Source of the DNA: Oscillospiraceae bacterium
GTDB taxonomy: Bacteria; Bacillota; Clostridia; Oscillospirales; Oscillospiraceae
DNA: 48,719 nt
Direction: 5' to 3'
Assembly: GCA_017435615.1 (NCBI GenBank)
Contig: JAFSET010000026.1
Location: 1-48,719, forward strand
The position numbers were made by a program, and so were the translations under genes. The notes under the pieces are model-generated. The model ran no database searches. It was not told the DNA's origin and saw nothing but the letters and a program-made list of their open reading frames with translations. This document shows, one piece after another, positions 2,738-37,710 of the stretch. Positions within the stretch are counted from its first letter, which is position 1. Each line of letters begins with the position of its first letter.

Positions 2738-4088
2738 ACGGTTGTACGGAAACGCCAGCGTATTGGTAGCTGCCGTAGAGCCATTGGCCGCCTGACCGGA
2801 TGCAGGGGACGACACGGTATTCGTAGGTTTCTCCGGCCACAATATCCCGGTCCTGATACTGACAGTCGGCCACGCTGGCACAGGCCTGCCACGGCGTTTT
2901 GGCGGTCTTTCGGAAGATGCTGTACCGCTCAGCACCGGATACGCCATCCCAGGTGATGAGGACGGAACCGCTGACTGCCCTGGCGGAAAGATTGGTTGGT
3001 GAACGGAGCTCTGTGCGTGTGCCGCCGTCCAATTCAAAGGGGAGCAGGTAGTGGGCAGCGTTGCGGTAGTAGGTCTCACAGGACTTATGCCAGGAGGCAT
3101 ATTGGCTGCTCTCCCGTTTGTCGGTAAATCCGTAGTGCTCGATCAGATATTCCGATAAATACCGGGTAAATTTAAAAGAGCCATGGATGTTGGTATGCTC
3201 TTCGTTGTAAAAATCCTGCGTTAAGTCCAGTCCCAACGCTTCATAGTCGTTTAAAAGATCCAAAACAGGATACCCGTGCTCCCGGGCAATGGCCGCAAAA
3301 GCGTTGATCATGCCCACCTCCCGGTAGGATGTCCGGGCCTGGGGAACCGCAACGAAAACCACCGGAAGCTGCTCTTGATCGCAGTAATCCAGTAGCTGCT
3401 GTATGTAAGCGGTCAGTTGATCATTCAGGACAGTGATGTTGTCGGTGGATTTATACAGGTGGCTGATGTTTGTCTGCCTGGAAAAATAGGGGCTGTACAT
3501 ACTGACACCCTTGCGCCATAGGGCAGGACGCTCCAGATCCTCCCACTCGAATTCGTTCCAGCGGTCGTGATAGCGGACAATGTGAAAATAAAACTCCATC
3601 TGCTGCTCCAGGGGGATATCCCCGGCCTGACACAGCGTGTGGGTCAGCTCCAGCTTGTTCAGGGAGAAGGGCATATAGTCCAGCAGCCAGTGCATCTGCT
3701 TATAATCGATGGCCTGATCGATGATGGTGTTGATATTTACGATAAAAACCGCATCTGGCTGGGTTTTTCGGCACTCCCGGATCAGGTGCTTGACTGCGTA
3801 AAAGGGCAGGGAGGAGCTGGCGAAAGGATAGACGCAGATGCCGTATTCTTCCCAGGCGTGGAGGGAGTTCCAAAAAACATAGCAGTTGCTGGATCCGATA
3901 TATACAGCATCCAGCGAATTTTTGGGTTCTTCGTAAAAGCCGGAGATTTGGTGATAGTCGATGCTGGAAAGGGCCACAAGGGGCTCTGACACCAGGCTCA
4001 CCAGCAAGATAAGCAGCACGCAAAAAAGAACAGCCCGAACAGGCCGGCCGATCTTTTCGCGCACCTTGGTTTTTTCAGAAATTACCAC
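2736..4088 (-). CDS. Exported SGNH/DltD-like hydrolase with C-terminal fibronectin type III domain
   Basis: The 450-residue protein has a short cytoplasmic end, one membrane anchor near residues 16-36, an SGNH-type domain and a C-terminal fibronectin III domain (about the last 90 residues). The likely nucleophile serine is in AVYIGSSN. The late block DFYNEEHTNIHG resembles the Asp/His motif of DltD/AlgX-like SGNH enzymes, which often act on surface-polymer acyl groups. The start is chosen as GTG at 4088 because a near-perfect Shine-Dalgarno (4092-4101) lies 8 bases upstream. The in-frame ATG at 4103 overlaps that site and has none of its own. No acyltransferase partner is adjacent, so the substrate is unknown. 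Confidence 0.8.
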   Translation of the reverse strand: MVISEKTKVREKIGRPVRAVLFCVLLILLVSLVSEPLVALSSIDYHQISGFYEEPKNSLDAVYIGSSNCYVFWNSLHAWEEYGICVYPFASSSLPFYAVKHLIRECRKTQPDAVFIVNINTIIDQAIDYKQMHWLLDYMPFSLNKLELTHTLCQAGDIPLEQQMEFYFHIVRYHDRWNEFEWEDLERPALWRKGVSMYSPYFSRQTNISHLYKSTDNITVLNDQLTAYIQQLLDYCDQEQLPVVFVAVPQARTSYREVGMINAFAAIAREHGYPVLDLLNDYEALGLDLTQDFYNEEHTNIHGSFKFTRYLSEYLIEHYGFTDKRESSQYASWHKSCETYYRNAAHYLLPFELDGGTRTELRSPTNLSARAVSGSVLITWDGVSGAERYSIFRKTAKTPWQACASVADCQYQDRDIVAGETYEYRVVPCIRSGGQWLYGSYQYAGVSVQP

Positions 4089-4166
4089 CTTAATCACCTC
4101 CATCCAGCCTGACCAGTATACCGCAAACAAAGATGAAATGCAACGAAAAAACTATTCTGGTGTATA

Positions 4167-4195
4167 TTGCAAAATGATAAGTGTTTTGCTATAAT
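4167..4195 (+). promoter_or_regulatory. Promoter of uridine phosphorylase gene
   Basis: TTGCAA (4167-4172), a 17-base spacer and TATAAT (4190-4195), followed by AGGAGGA ahead of the ATG at 4225. Confidence 0.8.
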
Positions 4196-4224
4196 GAGAG
4201 AAAGCTTTTTTAGGAGGATGCGCT

Positions 4225-4989
4225 ATGCAAGATATCGGCATGCAGTATCATATTCACTGCAAAGAGGGCGATGTGGGCCGTTATTGCTTCCTGCCCGGTG
4301 ATCCGGGACGCTGTGAAGCCATTGCAGCTTATTTTGATGATCCCGTACATATCGGTATGAACCGGGAGTACAATATCTACACCGGCACCCTGTTGGGGGA
4401 AAAGGTCTCCGTATGCTCTACCGGTATCGGCGGTCCTTCTGCCTCTATTGCTATGGAGGAGCTGGCTGCCATCGGCGTGGATACCTTTGTGCGGGTCGGC
4501 ACTTGCGGCGGTATCGATTTGGAGGTTCTGCCCGGTGATGTGGTGGTGGCCACCGGTGCCATCCGTTATGAGCACACCTCTATGGAATATGCCCCCATCG
4601 AATTTCCGGCAGTGCCGGATTTCGGCGTGACAGCGGCGCTGAAGGCTGCCAGTGAGGAGCTGGGCTACCGGACCCATATGGGCGTTGTCCAGTGCAAGGA
4701 CTCCTTCTACGGTCAGCACTCCCCGGAGAAGTCCCCGGTGTACTATGAGCTGCTGCAAAAATGGGACTCCTGGAAACGGTTAGGCGTGAAGGCCAGTGAA
4801 ATGGAATCGGCTGCCTTGTTTGTGGTGGCTGCCGCGCTGGGCGTGCGATGCGGCTCCTGTTTCCACGCGGTATGGAACCAGGAACGGGAAAAGCTGGGTA
4901 TGGAGATGCCTATGACGGAGGATACATCCGGTGCGGTGAAGGTGGGCATTGAGGCCATGAAGCGGATCATTGCCGCGGATAAGGCGTAA
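4225..4989 (+). CDS. udp: Uridine phosphorylase
   Basis: A cytoplasmic enzyme of pyrimidine salvage that splits uridine with phosphate into uracil and ribose-1-phosphate. The 254 residues are typical of the NP-1 nucleoside phosphorylase family. The phosphate loop LPGDPGR is near residues 23-29, GTCGGI sits mid-protein, [10 protein letters not shown] is characteristic of the clostridial uridine-specific branch, and EMESAALF near residue 192 matches the ribose/base site. An AGGAGGA site and a strong promoter precede it. Uracil made here could feed Upp, encoded 2 kb away on the other strand. A purine nucleoside phosphorylase is the main alternative, but the KDSFYGQ block favours uridine. Confidence 0.9.
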
Positions 4990-4994
4990 TATAA

Positions 4995-5028
4995 GGGCGC
5001 ATTGCAGTATTTTGCAATGCGCCCTTTC
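4995..5028 (+). terminator. Terminator after udp
   Basis: Perfect 12-base stem GGGCGCATTGCA (4995-5006) with 5013-5024, loop GTATTT, then TTT. Confidence 0.85.
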
Positions 5029-5081
5029 GTTTAAAGATACAGATAACGAAATACATATTTTTCAAGCTGTTTTTCAAAACT

Positions 5082-5225
5082 CGTAGGGACACCCCTCCCG
5101 GGGTGTCCGCAAAGATTTTGGGGCTTAATACGCCAAAATCTTTTTTATTCGTTTAGGCACAGGAACAAAATCGGCCCATCGAGGCCCAATTTTGTTTCGG
5201 ACACCCCAGGAGGGGTGTCCCTACG
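5082..5225. repeat. Multi-hairpin inverted-repeat element (MITE-like)
   Basis: Perfect 15-base terminal inverted repeats (CGTAGGGACACCCCT at 5082-5096 and its complement at 5211-5225) enclose 144 bases. Inside are two further hairpins, AAAGATTTTGG/CCAAAATCTTT (5111-5143) and one built on ACAAAAT/ATTTTGT (about 5165-5195). It has no coding capacity. The shape suits a non-autonomous mobile element or a structured intergenic repeat. Confidence 0.75.
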
Positions 5226-31311: not shown

Positions 31312-33066
31312 ATGGCGTTTCCCCCATCATTTATCGACGAACTGATCGCACGTAATCCCATTGAGGATGTGGTGGGCCAGCGGGTCAATTTGCGGCGTTC
31401 CGGTTCCAATCTGTTTGGCCTGTGCCCGTTCCACGGGGAGAAGACGGCGTCCTTCTCCGTGGCACCTGATAAAGGAATCTACTATTGCTTCGGCTGCCAT
31501 AAGGGTGGCGGTGCCATCAATTTTGTTATGGAGCTGGAGGGCCTGAGCTACCCGGATGCGGTCCGCAACCTGGCGGAGCGCTGCGGTATGGAAGTGCCTG
31601 AGGACGAGCAGTATCAAAGCAGATACCGCCAGCAGGAACGGCTTTGGGCTTTGCATAAGGAGGCGGCCCGGTTTTTCCACAGCCAGCTTTATGCCCCGGT
31701 GGGCAAGGCGGCACTGGCCTATGCCATTGGCCGTGGGATGCCCAAGTCGGTCCTGATCAAGTTTGGCATTGGTTACGCCCCGGATAGTTGGGATGCGCTG
31801 ATCAAAGCCTTGCGGTCCAAGGGGTATACAGACGAGGAGCTGAAAGAGTCCGGACTGGTGACGGTTTCCCAAAAATCCGGCAATTTGTTTGACCGGTTCC
31901 GTGACCGGCTGATGTTCCCCATTATTGATATCCGGGGCAATATCATCGGCTTCGGCGGACGGATCATGAACAATAAAGACCCCAATGCGGCCAAGTACTT
32001 AAATTCTCCGGAAACACTGATTTTTAATAAGCGAAAAAACCTGTTTGGCCTGAATTTTGCCAAAAAGAGCAAGTTAGGCTACCTGATCCTGGTGGAAGGC
32101 TATATGGATGCCATTGCTTTGCACCAGCACGGCTTTGACTGCGCCGTTGCCTCTTTGGGCACCAGCTTGACCCAAGAGCATGCAGTGCTGATCAGCCGGT
32201 ATGTGGAGCAGGTGGTGCTGATCTACGACGGTGACGAAGCCGGTCAGCGTGCTACACGCCGGGCCATTCCTATTTTGGAAAAGGCCGGTATTCAGGTGAA
32301 GGTCCTGAAAATGCGTGACGCCAAGGACCCGGATGAGTACCTGAAAAAATTTGGAGCGGACAAGTTCCGTCTGCTGTTGGAGGACTCCTCCAACCGGGTG
32401 GAATACCAGCTCAATGCCATCAAATCTAAGTATGACCTGCGTGAAGACGATCAGAAGATCCGCTATGTCCATGAAAGTGCGGAGCTGATCAGCACATTGC
32501 CCAGCTCCGTTCAGCGTGAGGTCTACGGCGGCAGAATTGCGGAGGCCGCAGGTATCAGTACTGAAGCAATGCAACTGGAAGTGAAAAAAGCCTATAAGCG
32601 CCGCCTTGAGCGTGAACGCAAACAGCAGGAGAAGATCGATTTGGCGCCGGTGCAAAGCTTGCAGCCCAAGGTCCGCACAGTGCGTTATGACAATATGAAG
32701 TCCGCTATGGCGGAGGAGAAAATCCTGGCCAACGCTTTGCAGGATCCGTCCTTGATGGACCAGGCCAAGGGCTTGAAAGGAGACCGGTTCTCTGTGGAGC
32801 TGCTGGGCCGGGTCTACGATCAGCTTTATACGCTGTACAAAAATGGCCTGGAGGTTACCCTGGCGGCGGTTGCGGACCTGACACCGGAGGAAATGTCCCA
32901 TATTGCCGGCGTGTGTCAGCGTCAGGATGGGCCGGTCAGCGAAACAGCCTTTACCGACTGTGTCAACACGGTACTGGGCATCAGTCAGGCTGCAATGGTC
33001 AGCACCGACGCCGATCTTTTGGCCTTCCGCAATAAACTGAGGGAAAGCAAGGGGACGAAGTCATGA
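31312..33066 (+). CDS. dnaG: DNA primase
   Basis: A 584-residue primase that makes RNA primers at the replication fork. The CHC2 zinc finger is complete: Cys38, His41, Cys59, Cys62. The catalytic core with RFRDRLMFPI and the TOPRIM motifs LVEGYMDAIALHQ and YDGDEAGQRA follows, then a helicase-binding C-terminal domain. AAAGGAGGGG precedes the ATG. The last four bases overlap the sigma-factor start (ATGA), as in the classical macromolecular-synthesis arrangement. Confidence 0.97.
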   Translation: MAFPPSFIDELIARNPIEDVVGQRVNLRRSGSNLFGLCPFHGEKTASFSVAPDKGIYYCFGCHKGGGAINFVMELEGLSYPDAVRNLAERCGMEVPEDEQYQSRYRQQERLWALHKEAARFFHSQLYAPVGKAALAYAIGRGMPKSVLIKFGIGYAPDSWDALIKALRSKGYTDEELKESGLVTVSQKSGNLFDRFRDRLMFPIIDIRGNIIGFGGRIMNNKDPNAAKYLNSPETLIFNKRKNLFGLNFAKKSKLGYLILVEGYMDAIALHQHGFDCAVASLGTSLTQEHAVLISRYVEQVVLIYDGDEAGQRATRRAIPILEKAGIQVKVLKMRDAKDPDEYLKKFGADKFRLLLEDSSNRVEYQLNAIKSKYDLREDDQKIRYVHESAELISTLPSSVQREVYGGRIAEAAGISTEAMQLEVKKAYKRRLERERKQQEKIDLAPVQSLQPKVRTVRYDNMKSAMAEEKILANALQDPSLMDQAKGLKGDRFSVELLGRVYDQLYTLYKNGLEVTLAAVADLTPEEMSHIAGVCQRQDGPVSETAFTDCVNTVLGISQAAMVSTDADLLAFRNKLRESKGTKS

Positions 33067-33938
33067 CAGACCTGGATTATGCCCGGCAGGACACAGGGGA
33101 GGTTCTCCCCGGCAGCGAAGACAGTGTCAATCAATATATGAAAGATATTCGCCAGTACCCCCGGCTGACCCTTCAGCAGGAGCAGGAGCTGGCAATGGGC
33201 TGTGCGGCCGGTGATCAGGAGGCCATCCGTCAGATGGTCAGCTCCAATTTGCAGCTTGTGGTGTCCATTGCCCGGGAGTATGCAGGCAGAGGCGTTCCTC
33301 TTTTGGACCTGATCCAGGAGGGGAGTATCGGCCTGATCGCGGCGGCTAAGAAATTTGACCCGGCAAGACAGCTTCGGTTTTCCACCTATGCCACAAAGTG
33401 GATCCGTCAGGGCGTTGCCCGGTGTGTGGTGGACCATAGCTGTATGATCCGTGTGCCTTATTATACAGCCCAGCGGATGAACAAGGTACTTAGGGTCAGA
33501 AATGCGCTGCTTCAGCAAAACGGTGTCGAGCCGGATGCCGGAGAAATTGCCCTGCAGTGCGATATGGAGCCAGAGAAGGTTTTGCAGCTATTAAGCCTTG
33601 CGCCTCAGGTGTATTCTCTGGATGCGCCGGTGGGCCAGGAGGGAGAAAATGAGCTGCAAAGCCTTGTGGAGGATCTGCAATCTCTGCAGCCTCAGGAGGA
33701 ACTGGTTCGCCGGGAGCTGAAGGCTACCATAGGCAGCTTGCTGTGTATGCTGACGCCCCGTCAGCAGCAGGTTTTGGAGCTGCGTTACGGCCTGGAAAAC
33801 AGCCAGCCTATGTCCCAGGAGCAGGCATCGAAAATTTTGGGTATCTCAAAGGAACGGGTTCGCCAAATCGAGCATGAGGCTATGGCAAAGCTGAAAAAAA
33901 TGGGTGCGGACTTTGGATTGGAGGATTTTTTGCTGTGA
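33063..33938 (+). CDS. RNA polymerase sigma-70 factor, short SigA-like form
   Basis: A 291-residue sigma factor in the position usually held by rpoD. It starts directly at region 1.2 (SVNQYMKDIRQYPRLT near 21-36), so region 1.1 is lacking. Region 2 is intact (NLQLVVSIAREYAGRG, LLDLIQEGSIGL, RFSTYATKWIRQGV), with Lys in place of the first Trp of the usual YATWWIRQ. Region 3 and region 4 (LTPRQQQVLELRYGL, GISKERVRQIEHEA) are complete, and the residues that contact the -35 element look standard. It overlaps dnaG by four bases and the next sigma-like gene by four. Confidence 0.9.
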   Translation: MTDLDYARQDTGEVLPGSEDSVNQYMKDIRQYPRLTLQQEQELAMGCAAGDQEAIRQMVSSNLQLVVSIAREYAGRGVPLLDLIQEGSIGLIAAAKKFDPARQLRFSTYATKWIRQGVARCVVDHSCMIRVPYYTAQRMNKVLRVRNALLQQNGVEPDAGEIALQCDMEPEKVLQLLSLAPQVYSLDAPVGQEGENELQSLVEDLQSLQPQEELVRRELKATIGSLLCMLTPRQQQVLELRYGLENSQPMSQEQASKILGISKERVRQIEHEAMAKLKKMGADFGLEDFLL

Positions 33939-34963
33939 CAGAATTGGATTTTTGCTTTGAGGAGCCCCTGTGGCAGCGGCAGCTTCAAAGTCTGGAAAAT
34001 CAAGGCTGCATCTGCGCGGCACAGTTTCTGACGGTGTTGGAGCCGGAGGATCAGCTTGCGGCAGAGGAGGCCTTCTCCTGGCTGGATGAGCATCATATTA
34101 CATTAAATATTGACGACCTGCCGCCGGTGCAGCTTACCGGCACGGCAGCCTTGCGACTGAAGCAGGAGGAGCAGCAGAGCCTTGCGGATGTGACACAGGG
34201 CCTGGACCCCAATGATCCGCTGTTGCTGTACCTGCAGGAAGTGTCTATGATTCCGGCTGCAGGAGATCCCCAGCTTTTGGCGGAGCGTTATAGCGCAGGA
34301 GAGCACCATGTGGCAGAGCAGTTGGTGAACAATTGCCTGAGTATGGTCACGCAGCAGGCAATGGCTTATACCGGCCACGGTGTATTGCTGTTGGATCTTA
34401 TTCAGGAAGGCAGCATGGGCCTGTGGCAGAGCATTATCCGCTACGAAAGCGGTGATTTTGTGGCCCATGCCCAATGGTGGATCCGTCACTTTATGGCCAA
34501 GGCAGTGACATCTTATGCGCGCAGCAGCGGTGTCGGCCTGCATCTGCTGGAAAGCATGCAGGACTATGTGGATGCAGACCAGCGGCTATTGACAGAGCTG
34601 GGCAGAAACCCGGTGCTGGAGGAGATCGCCGATGCGCTGCATATTTCTGAGCAGCAGGCCGCTACCGTGGAAAAAATGGTAACCCAGGCCCGGAGCCTGC
34701 AAAAGATCAAAATGCCGGAGCCGGAGCCTACACCGGAGGATGAGCAGGCTGTGGAGGATACGGCATACTTCCAGCTTCGTCAGCGGATCGCAGAGCTGCT
34801 TTCCGTGCTGCCGGAGCAGGATGCCAAATTGCTGACTCTGCGCTTTGGCCTGGAGGGAGGACAACCCCTGACACCGGTACAGACCGGTGAAATATTGAAT
34901 ATGACACCGCAGGAGGTGGTGCGCCGTGAGGCGGCAGCGCTTTCCCGTCTGCGCAATGTGTAA
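33935..34963 (+). CDS. Divergent second sigma-70-like protein
   Basis: A 342-residue protein clearly derived from SigA but degenerate. An N-terminal domain of about 90 residues resembles region 1.1. Region 1.2 (NDPLLLYLQEVSMIP) and core-binding region 2.2 (LLLDLIQEGSMGLW) are kept. Region 2.3-2.4, normally FSTYATWWIRQ, reads FVAHAQWWIRH, and the basic RTIRIP motif is gone. Region 4.2 lacks the RERxRQIE helix (TPQEVVRREAAAL). It may bind core polymerase but should not recognise ordinary promoters. GTG at 33935 overlaps the previous stop (GTGA), with GGAGG upstream. A regulator, an altered-specificity sigma or a decaying copy are all possible. Confidence 0.85.
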   Translation: MTELDFCFEEPLWQRQLQSLENQGCICAAQFLTVLEPEDQLAAEEAFSWLDEHHITLNIDDLPPVQLTGTAALRLKQEEQQSLADVTQGLDPNDPLLLYLQEVSMIPAAGDPQLLAERYSAGEHHVAEQLVNNCLSMVTQQAMAYTGHGVLLLDLIQEGSMGLWQSIIRYESGDFVAHAQWWIRHFMAKAVTSYARSSGVGLHLLESMQDYVDADQRLLTELGRNPVLEEIADALHISEQQAATVEKMVTQARSLQKIKMPEPEPTPEDEQAVEDTAYFQLRQRIAELLSVLPEQDAKLLTLRFGLEGGQPLTPVQTGEILNMTPQEVVRREAAALSRLRNV

Positions 34964-34990
34964 ATACAGACAGTAAGGATGGAAGATAAC

Positions 34991-35671
34991 ATGGCAAAGA
35001 CCTATGCAATTGCGATCGATGGCCCGGCCGGTGCCGGAAAAAGCACCATTGCCAAACGCCTGGCAAAGGAACTGGGCTATTACTATGTGGATACCGGTGC
35101 GATCTACCGTACCGTGGCGTATTTTCTGGACCTGTGGGGCGTCAGCCCCAAGGATGTGGACGGTGTGGAGCGTTATATTGACGAGCTGACGGTGTCCATT
35201 GAATATGACGAAGACGGCAGTCAGCATATGATCATGAACGGCATGGATGTGACCAACGATATTCGCACCCAGGAAATATCCCAAAAGGCATCCCTGGTTT
35301 CTGCCCATGCAGTGGTCCGGGAGGTGCTGCTGGATATGCAGCGTGAGGTGGCCCACCGCCATAATGTGATCATGGACGGCCGTGATATCGGCACCGTGGT
35401 CCTGCCCAAGGCGGATGTGAAGATCTTCTTGACAGCCGCGCCGGAGGTCCGGGCAAAGCGCCGCTGTGATGAGCTGCTGGCAAAAGGACAGAAGGCGGTT
35501 TATGAAACGGTTCTGCAGGAGATCATCCAGCGGGACTATCAGGACAGCCACCGTGCTATTGCGCCGCTGAAGATGGCCCGGGATTCCGTGAAGGTGGATA
35601 CCTCCAACCTGGATATTGACGGCGTGATCGCGGAAATGAAGCGTGTGATCGGAGAGAAAATTCCGTTATGA
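34991..35671 (+). CDS. cmk: Cytidylate kinase
   Basis: A 226-residue nucleoside monophosphate kinase that converts CMP and dCMP to the diphosphates. The P-loop GPAGAGKST is at residues 11-19, YYYVDTGAIYR near 33-43, MDGRDIGTVV mid-protein, and LTAAPEVRAKRR near the lid. The ATG at 34991 is preceded by GGAAG; an ATG at 34979 overlaps AAGGA and is less likely. Its stop overlaps the ispH start (ATGA). The order cmk then ispH-rpsA is common in Clostridia. Confidence 0.96.
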   Translation: MAKTYAIAIDGPAGAGKSTIAKRLAKELGYYYVDTGAIYRTVAYFLDLWGVSPKDVDGVERYIDELTVSIEYDEDGSQHMIMNGMDVTNDIRTQEISQKASLVSAHAVVREVLLDMQREVAHRHNVIMDGRDIGTVVLPKADVKIFLTAAPEVRAKRRCDELLAKGQKAVYETVLQEIIQRDYQDSHRAIAPLKMARDSVKVDTSNLDIDGVIAEMKRVIGEKIPL

Positions 35672-37710
35672 GTGTAGTGGTAGCGAAAAATGCCGGCTTC
35701 TGCTTCGGTGTGAACCGGGCGGTGGAGCTTGTGGAGCAGGCAGCAAAGGAAAACCGTGACGTGGTGACGCTGGGTCCGATCATCCACAACCGCCATGCGG
35801 TAAAGCATTTCGAAGAAATGGGAGTAAAGGTCATTGACAGTCCTTTCGATGCCCAGCCGGACCAAACGGTGGTCATCCGTTCCCACGGCGTATCTGCCGG
35901 GGTGTATCGGCAATTGGAGCAGCAGGGGGCAAGGATCGTGGATGCTACCTGTCCTTTTGTGAAACGAATTCACGGCATTGTCAGTGCCGCTGAGGAGGAA
36001 GGCCGCCTGCCGGTGATCATCGGCACACGGGCCCATCCGGAGGTGGAGGGCATTGCCGGCTGGTGCAGCAAATGCATGATCTTTGAAAGCCCCGAGGAGC
36101 TGGCGCAGTGGGCAAAATCCCCGGAAATTCCGTCGGATTTGCCAATTTGTATGGTTTGTCAAACAACTTCCACTGAAAGTTTGTGGAAAATGTGCGCCGA
36201 AATAGCAAAAAAACAGTTTACTAATTTGAAAATTTTTGATACAATATGTAAAGCTACTGAAATGCGGCAGTCTGAAGCGGCGAAATTAAGCGCCGGTTGT
36301 CAGGCCATGGTGGTTGTGGGAGATACCCATAGCTCCAATACCGGGCGTTTGGCAATGATCTGCCGGGAGCACTGCGACCGGGTGGTGCTGGTGGATAACG
36401 CCAGCGAGCTGGATCCCGGGTTTTTCGCTGGTGCCGTCAATGTCGGAATCACTGCGGGAGCATCGACTCCTGCGTGGATTATAAAGGAGGTCAACAAGAC
36501 TATGAGCGAAATTATTAATGCTGAGGCTGTGCAGGAGGAGAACTTTGCCGAACTTCTCGAGCAGTCCATCAAGACTTTAAATACAGGAGATAAAGTTACC
36601 GGTATCGTAACAGGTATTGGCACAACCGAAGTCCAGATCGATCTGGGCACCAAGCATGCCGGCTACATCCCGTATGATGAAGTCAGCGCCGATCCCGCTG
36701 TGAAGCCTGAGGATATCCTGAAGGTTGGCGACGAGATCGAAGTGTTTGTCGTTCGTGTGAACGACCAGGAAGGCACCTGCCAACTGTCCAAGAAGAAGCT
36801 GGACGGTATGAAGGTGTGGGACGATATGGCTGTCTGGTGTGAGGAGAAGACTGTTGTCGATGCCGTGATCACCGAGGAAAATAAGGGCGGCCTGGTTGCC
36901 ACTGTTAAGGGTATTCGTGTGTTCATTCCTGCTTCCCAGTCCGGTGTTGCCAAGGGTGGCGATATGGCTGCTATGGTAGGCCAGAATGTTCAGATGAAGA
37001 TCACCGAGGTCAACCGTGCACGCCGCCGTGTCATCGGCTCCATCCGTGCTGTGACCGCTGAGGCCCGTAAGGCTGCTCAGGAGAAGATCTGGAATGAGAT
37101 CCAGGAGGGCGCCAAGTACCACGGTACTGTTAAGTCCCTGACCTCCTACGGTGCATTTGTGGACATCGGCGGCGTTGACGGTATGGTCCACGTTTCCGAG
37201 CTGAGCTGGAACCGTATCAAGACCCCTGCTGAGGTCGTCAGCGTGGGTGATGAGATCGATGTGTACGTCATTTCCTTCGATCCCGTGAAGCACAAGATCT
37301 CTCTGGGCTACAAGACCGCTGAGATGAACCCCTGGAACAAGTTCATGACCGAGTACAACATCGGTGATGTTGTGGATGCCAAGATTGTGAAGCTGATGAC
37401 CTTCGGTGCCTTTGCTGAGATCCTGCCCGGCGTAGATGGCCTGATCCACATTTCTCAGATCGCCAACAAGCGCATCGGCAAGCCTGAGGACGTACTGGCT
37501 GAGGGCCAGCAGGTCCAGGTGAAGATCACCGATGTGGATGCCGAGAACAAGCGCATCTCCCTGTCCATCCGTGCACTGCTGCAGGAGGAAGAGCCTGAGG
37601 ATGCCGAAGAGGCTGAAGAGGCAGAGGAAGCTGTGGAAGCTGCTGAGGAAGTGGCAGAAGCAGTGGAAGAAGTGGCTGAGGAAGTTGCTTCCGAAGAGGC
37701 TGCTGAGTAA
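35668..37710 (+). CDS. ispH: Fused IspH (HMBPP reductase) and ribosomal protein S1
   Basis: A 680-residue fusion known from Clostridia. Residues 1-278 are IspH, the last enzyme of the MEP isoprenoid pathway: [4Fe-4S] ligands Cys12, Cys95 and Cys194, His40 in GPIIHNRH, and the catalytic Glu in TRAHPEVEG. Residues 279-680 are S1 with four S1 RNA-binding domains (about 310-377, 393-459, 477-546, 562-632) and an acidic Glu/Ala tail. Inside the gene, an AT-rich patch carries a good promoter (36217-36245), and AAAGGAGGT stands before an in-frame ATG at 36502, so free S1 may also be made. Arginine codons change from CGG to CGT/CGC at the junction. Confidence 0.95.
36217..36245 (+). promoter_or_regulatory. 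Putative internal promoter for the S1 half
   Basis: TTTACT (36217-36222), a 17-base spacer, TACAAT (36240-36245) preceded by TGA (extended -10). It lies inside an AT-rich patch of the ispH half, 257 bases before the S1 start. Confidence 0.6.
36483..36504 (+). promoter_or_regulatory. Internal ribosome binding site and start codon of S1
   Basis: AAAGGAGGT (36483-36491) followed 11 bases later by ATG (36502-36504), in frame with the fusion and exactly at the domain junction. Confidence 0.65.

Follow-up and report, generated by a model that had tools for sequence, protein, structure and literature searches.

The window analysed here is contig JAFSET010000026.1 (48,719 nucleotides; assembly GCA_017435615.1) of an Oscillospiraceae bacterium whose genus (g1) is very probably Faecousia. 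It carries on its forward strand two adjoining genes, S1 and S2, for relatives of the sigma-70 proteins; a sigma factor is a protein that directs RNA polymerase to gene starts. S1 (33063..33938) encodes a short sigma-70 factor of 291 residues with regions 1.2 to 4 and without region 1.1, and S2 (33935..34963) has a GTG start and encodes a 342-residue relative that is predicted to be blind to DNA. As a preliminary description of this DNA had reported, the two open reading frames overlap, by 4 bases, and the sequence GGAGGA within the 3′ end of S1 (33920..33925) is the likely ribosome-binding site of S2. A similar purine-rich stretch also lies 5′ of S2 in the other loci of the genus that were inspected, and a pattern search for the ribosome site gave one match elsewhere, which is the level expected by chance. 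The pair is preceded by the DNA primase gene dnaG (31312..33066; TIGR01391, 446 bits, above the cut-off), the stop of which overlaps the start of S1 by 4 bases, and is followed by the cytidylate kinase gene cmk (34979..35671; TIGR00017, 236 bits).

Judged from its matches to Pfam and NCBIfam models and to structures in the PDB, S2 is a sigma-70 relative by descent. Its regions 2 and 4 score above the Pfam cut-offs and its region 3 at the cut-off, and a profile of S2 recovers SigA and RpoD chains from the PDB (best score, 202 bits). S1 scores above the Pfam cut-offs in regions 1.2, 2, 3 and 4. Both proteins match NCBIfam sigma models, including those of RpoD, far under their cut-offs; the best model for S2 is the RpoD model NF006666, which gives 135 bits over residues 44-341, the cut-off of 572 being far higher. 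The pair does not have the make-up of a group 1 (primary) sigma factor, because S1 is without region 1.1 and S2 is without the promoter contacts.

The residues retained in the two proteins were compared in a single alignment of 92 S1, 95 S2 and 103 RpoD sequences, those of S1 and S2 being the distinct sequences that cover at least 80% of the query. The positions scored are those at least 95% invariant in RpoD, and a position counts as kept when its residue occurs in at least 80% of a group; residue numbers are those of Escherichia coli RpoD, anchored on W433. In S2, the residues S428, T429, Y430, T432, R451, P453, H455, R586, R588 and Q589 are retained in 0-9% of the sequences, with R586 and R588 in 1% or less, and R451 and P453 have become glycine in 95% and 96%, respectively, so that the promoter-contact changes named in the preliminary description proved to be fixed across the genus. 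The part of S2 that corresponds to regions 2.3 to 3.0 (G173-Y211; 34451..34567), in which the promoter-contact residues are replaced, carries a new conserved motif, and a second motif specific to S2, VEDTAYFQLRQRI (34751..34789), precedes region 4. The sigma finger is deleted, and domain 4 has a net charge of -0.4 vs +4 to +6 in RpoD. Region 4 itself (34796..34957; Pfam Sigma70_r4, 38.1 bits, above the cut-off) is still recognisable; the earlier statement that the recognition helix of region 4.2 had been lost is therefore right for the DNA-contact residues, which are gone, but not for the helices of the region. Taken region by region, S2 keeps 7/14 of the RpoD-invariant positions in region 1.2, 13/30 in 2.1-2.2, 2/18 in 2.3-2.4, 1/11 in 3.0, 3/5 in 3.1, 0/10 in 3.2 (the finger), 5/12 in 4.1 and 6/21 in 4.2.

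The best-kept part of S2 is the region 2.2 block G147-W164 (34373..34426), in agreement with the core-binding block singled out earlier. D403, L404, Q406, E407, G408, G411 and L412 are retained in 93-100% of the 95 sequences, and D403, Q406 and E407, which belong to the beta′ contact of RpoD, in 97-100%. Retention of 13/30 positions in regions 2.1-2.2 exceeds that of 9/60 in regions 2.3-2.4, 3.0, 3.2 and 4.2 together (Fisher p 0.0046). The above-cut-off Pfam matches of regions 2 and 4 would suit a promoter-reading sigma factor that has merely changed its recognition sequence, but deletion of the finger, loss of R586, R588, R451 and P453 and loss of the domain 4 charge make that reading very unlikely. 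Of the residues with which a functional sigma factor contacts the -10, extended -10 and -35 elements, and of its finger, S2 has lost the greater part, as the 9/60 positions show.

The N terminus of S2 is acidic (mean charge -12), and residues ~18-62 (33986..34120) match RpoD N termini in profile comparison. Against region 1.1 of the RpoDs encoded next to dnaG and of single RpoDs, 44 columns are matched with a probability of 43% and an E value of 2.5e-4; against region 1.1 of the RpoDs encoded on the lepA side, the probability is 8% (E 0.0043), and five column shuffles of the region 1.1 profile comparison gave at most 0.35%. No Pfam match to region 1.1 was found in S2 up to E 1. The proposal that this N terminus is region 1.1-like thus receives moderate support.

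S1 looks like a working sigma factor in which most promoter contacts are kept: T429, Y430, W434, Q437, R451, E585, R586, R588 and Q589 are retained in 97-100% of the 92 sequences. Its RpoD-invariant positions are kept at 7/14 in region 1.2, 23/30 in 2.1-2.2, 11/18 in 2.3-2.4, 5/11 in 3.0, 2/5 in 3.1, 6/10 in 3.2, 7/12 in 4.1 and 12/21 in 4.2. The preliminary description of S1 as a protein that begins at region 1.2 and has intact regions 2-4 agrees with the Pfam matches, but “intact” is too strong at the position of W433, which is lysine in 91/92 S1 sequences (K112 in the window; codon at 33396..33398) and tryptophan in 103/103 RpoDs.

S2 is present without internal stops in 35/37 genomes of the genus, the genome of the window included, one copy being partial at a contig end. 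In the two remaining genomes (G018 and G027), only RpoD was found and a dnaG match is absent too; because dnaG is also unmatched there, the locus is probably missing from these assemblies rather than from the genomes. S1 lies directly upstream of S2 in 30/30 of the fetched loci of the genus (one of them truncated at a contig end), and a possible S2 start overlaps S1 by 1, 4 or 8 bases in all 30. In a second set of public loci, made up of the best 80 of 138 relatives, S2 occurs in 80/80, dnaG and S1 lie upstream in 77/80 and cmk occurs in 78/80. The three loci without this upstream DNA are cut by a contig end in two cases and, in the third (L139), by a contig junction inside S1 at about 5870, where only S1 residues 229-290 stand before an intact S2 and unrelated genes lie upstream; this junction looks like an assembly fault. 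Because the features described are conserved through the genus, chance is excluded as their explanation.

Selection on S2, for which the preliminary description had asked, was measured as the ratio of nonsynonymous to synonymous substitution rates (dN/dS) in sequences chosen by the coverage rule given above, which also yielded 81 dnaG and 91 cmk sequences. In the 25 locus pairs closest by dnaG, which share sequences and are not independent, dN/dS is 0.060-0.187 for S2 in 24 pairs and 0.030-0.130 for S1 in the same 24; the outlier pair (L096/L146) gives 0.389 for S2, 0.342 for S1 and 0.323 for cmk. In distant, nearly saturated pairs, the median is 0.21-0.37 for S2 and 0.24-0.27 for S1. S2 is thus under purifying selection, and it is constrained though fast: among the six genes compared in 50 loci it evolves most rapidly, with a mean distance of 0.69 vs 0.47 for S1 and 0.33 for dnaG. 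That speed and the maximum dN/dS of 0.93 reached by S2 in the distant pairs are what a decaying duplicate might give, but the stop-free reading frames, the kept gene order, the low dN/dS of close pairs and the new fixed motifs mean that such a reading can hardly be correct. Decay with frameshifts and relaxed selection, which the preliminary description had set out as evidence against a function, was not seen across the genus; on the strength of conservation and purifying selection, the idea of a decaying copy was rejected, and S2 is a kept gene and not debris.

The constant adjacency and overlap of the genes wherever both are covered, together with the lack of region 1.1 in S1 and the presence of a region 1.1-like part in S2, would also agree with a single two-chain factor in which S2 binds S1 and aids it, for instance by providing either region 1.1 control in trans or an additional polymerase contact. 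A precedent for a split sigma factor exists in SigO-RsoA of Bacillus subtilis (PMC8103513), which likewise consists of two sigma-derived proteins encoded by neighbouring genes. In SigO-RsoA, however, the sigma domains are divided between the chains (PMC8103513), whereas here S1 alone already holds regions 1.2 to 4 and S2 is itself a further relative of nearly full length; a split of the SigO-RsoA type was for this reason set aside. Moreover, the region 2.2 block is kept in both S1 and S2, so that competition for one site on the core would be expected. The co-variation between S1 and S2 in the 50 loci that have all six genes (partial r 0.16, p 0.046) does not rise above the controls S1-ispH (0.33) and S2-dnaG (0.28). 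A two-chain factor is therefore rather unlikely in our judgement, and no result favours an action of region 1.1 in trans, which may occur, over simple competition.

When the genome of the window (76.6% complete) was searched for sigma region 2, 11 places were identified; the best, located on a different contig, encodes an RpoD of 384 residues that spans regions 1.1 to 4. RpoD is found in 20/20 loci of the genus fetched around this gene, and the copies from the 19 other genomes are 79-92% identical to it; in the three loci for which open reading frames were listed, the gene beside it presumably is lepA, as judged from its N-terminal motif. The preliminary description had suggested such a search, and had counted against its own reading the combination of a separate normal RpoD with no interaction of the second protein with polymerase; the first half of this combination is what was found. 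Because a full RpoD is encoded elsewhere and S1 itself holds the promoter-reading regions, the pair was rejected as a split primary sigma factor. Two further RpoD variants were seen in the genus. In one genome (L163, G013:C23; 2697-5216), the second RpoD consists of two tandem full-length genes, 84% and 82% identical to the RpoD of the window's genome and both with all promoter motifs. In another (L246, G028:C2; reverse strand), which also has RpoD and the S1-S2 pair, there is a further RpoD-like protein of 322 residues, 57% identical to RpoD, with the promoter motifs present and a shortened N terminus.

From these features we infer that S1 is an alternative sigma factor and that S2 is a DNA-blind core binder, made together with S1, that would limit or tune sigma loading; we give this model about an even chance. 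The region 2.2 helix of S2, probably joined by region 4, would attach the protein to core RNA polymerase, and the acidic N terminus with its likeness to region 1.1 would lie in the DNA channel. Because it reads no promoter and has no finger, S2 would occupy the core without starting transcription and so lower or tune the loading of S1 and RpoD, and because the genes overlap, it would be co-translated and appear in step with S1. S2 is thus probably a built-in regulator. In sigma factors, region 2.2 is the part bound to the beta′ coiled coil and domain 4 that bound to the beta flap; region 1.1, which is acidic, mimics DNA inside the holoenzyme channel (PMC4598750). Phage proteins provide precedents. 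T4 gp33, a DNA-blind protein that binds the polymerase at a sigma site, represses basal transcription, but it has 112 residues and no discernible sequence likeness to sigma factors, and it binds the flap only (PMC2988020). T7 Ocr, likewise from a phage, is a dimer that mimics DNA and competes for the core with sigma (PMC7064336), which is the effect proposed for S2; S2, by contrast, is a chromosomal sigma relative. In the light of these two proteins, DNA-blind core binders can therefore restrain initiation.

Several observations weigh against this model of S2 as a core binder. In S2, 17/30 of the invariant positions of regions 2.1-2.2 are gone, N409 is replaced, and the net charge of these regions has changed from about +3 to -2, so that binding to the core may be weak or absent. 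The co-variation of S1 with S2, given above, is no stronger than in the controls. In addition, S2 has conserved motifs of its own, which replace region 3.0 and precede region 4 and which may serve another partner. Of the roles that the preliminary description had offered for S2, competition for the core or modulation of S1 remains the most natural reading of the surviving residues, but any hint of a split primary sigma factor found no support.

If the motifs of S2 that are unlike those of RpoD do serve another partner, S2 could be a decoy for a protein that binds sigma (an anti-sigma factor or an activator of S1), in the way that PhyR of alphaproteobacteria acts on NepR. PhyR, a sigma-like protein that has lost the ability to start transcription (as is predicted for S2), has a domain with degenerate promoter and core regions and frees sigma by binding the anti-sigma factor (PMC8103513, PMC4598750). 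However, the domain of PhyR is of the extracytoplasmic function type and joined to a receiver, and its core-binding part is degenerate (PMC8103513), whereas S2 is of the RpoD type and keeps region 2.2. Pfam matches of S2 up to E 1 include no receiver domain, and no anti-sigma gene was recognised beside the pair, the neighbours dnaG and cmk being housekeeping genes. A decoy role is consequently improbable. Only slightly less probable still is that S2 acts not at initiation but on elongating polymerase, where it would affect pausing or termination by way of the beta′ coiled coil or the beta flap. Retention of region 2.2 and parts of region 4 would permit it, and the beta flap is also a site of elongation regulators (PMC2988020), but the single-strand contacts of region 2.4 of the promoter type are gone and none of the observations singles out elongation.

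RpoD/SigA (group 1) is the parent family of both proteins. S1 differs from it in the absence of region 1.1, S2 in the absence of promoter contacts and finger, and each genome read has another RpoD. In a 110-genome sample, 13 related genera of the family have two RpoDs, one 78-82% identical to that of Faecousia and one in the dnaG slot. The slot, read in all of these genera, is occupied by RpoD in 13/13 (one of them truncated at a contig end); of the genera read, g1 alone carries S1 and S2 in this place. Probably the pair took the place of an RpoD in the dnaG slot that had become redundant. In the simplest history, this redundancy arose from the presence of a second RpoD, and the dnaG-linked gene was then duplicated and its copies diverged in the ancestor of the genus. 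Three states that occur in 0/103 RpoDs favour a common origin for S1 and S2, at positions of the RpoD of the window's own genome: V at 171 (86/92 S1, 92/95 S2), S at 181 (88/92 and 84/95) and N at 153 (61/92 and 63/95). The proposed origin follows from the slot and these shared states and not from the tree. In a tree of 82 of 285 distinct sequences, chosen by random draw and list order, S1 and S2 each form one clade (100/100 each), S1 adjoins the dnaG-slot RpoDs of another genus, g36 (97/89), and the S2 branch is very long (3.34). Approximately unbiased (AU) tests did not reject S1 and S2 in one clade (p-AU 0.224), S2 with the second RpoD (0.305) or S1 with the second RpoD (0.071).

Outside the family, tandem full-length RpoD genes also follow dnaG in two families of the same order (L177, G043, 2895-5221; L183, G051, 2837-5196). 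Because all six copies of these two tandems and of that in L163 retain the promoter motifs, duplication alone does not yield S2. In a further genome (L230, G110; 2938-3163, reverse strand), an RpoD-like open frame of 75 residues stands right after a full dnaG-slot RpoD; it may be left over from a tandem copy or be an artefact of the frame.

In profile searches, which scored a limited number of candidates per genome, only g1 reached at least 250 bits with S2 among the matches listed, in 6 g1 genomes of a sample of 300 from the family and in 5 g1 genomes of a sample of 394 from the order; the best genomes outside g1 scored 210 and 204 bits, respectively. With the S1 profile in 200 genomes, the 4 g1 genomes listed scored at least 439 bits and the best other genome 333. 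The genomes without a match in these samples (65 in the family, 331 in the order and 4 for S1) are not named and could include members of g1 that are without the pair, so that the count within the genus rests on the set of 37 genomes. The lower-scoring S2 matches that were read (L048-L071 and L222-L241) are all RpoD, and the maximum of 210 bits outside g1 is what such RpoDs reach.

Elsewhere in the window, a fused gene for ispH and ribosomal protein S1 (35668-37710; NCBIfam family NF000907, 734 bits) lies downstream of cmk, and no Rfam match at gathering scores was found within the window.

Among the papers listed in searches of the open-licence literature in PMC, which are no proof of absence, no title or opening of an abstract gave an account of the S1-S2 pair or of a DNA-blind core binder derived from RpoD. 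A bolder proposal, which we make tentatively and hold to be clearly less probable than the general model, is that S2 is a sigma factor turned dedicated core plug, with sigma-like docking and a region 1.1-type mimic in the channel but no initiation, which would have arisen through division of labour when an rpoD next to dnaG became redundant, and which would be produced in step with a promoter-reading sibling, S1. The bacteria that carry the pair are gut bacteria. In them, S1 and S2 are sigma-70 paralogues of which one has apparently turned regulator, and the two halves are divided between the proteins, promoter reading lying in S1 and the region 1.1-like part and core-docking helix in S2. For annotation, caution is advisable, because both proteins match sigma-70 models and one of them is probably unable to start transcription. 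If S2 does bind the core, it would be a sigma-derived, chromosomally encoded inhibitor or tuner of RNA polymerase, and it would serve as a natural experiment on the effects of core binding and region 1.1 once promoter reading is gone.

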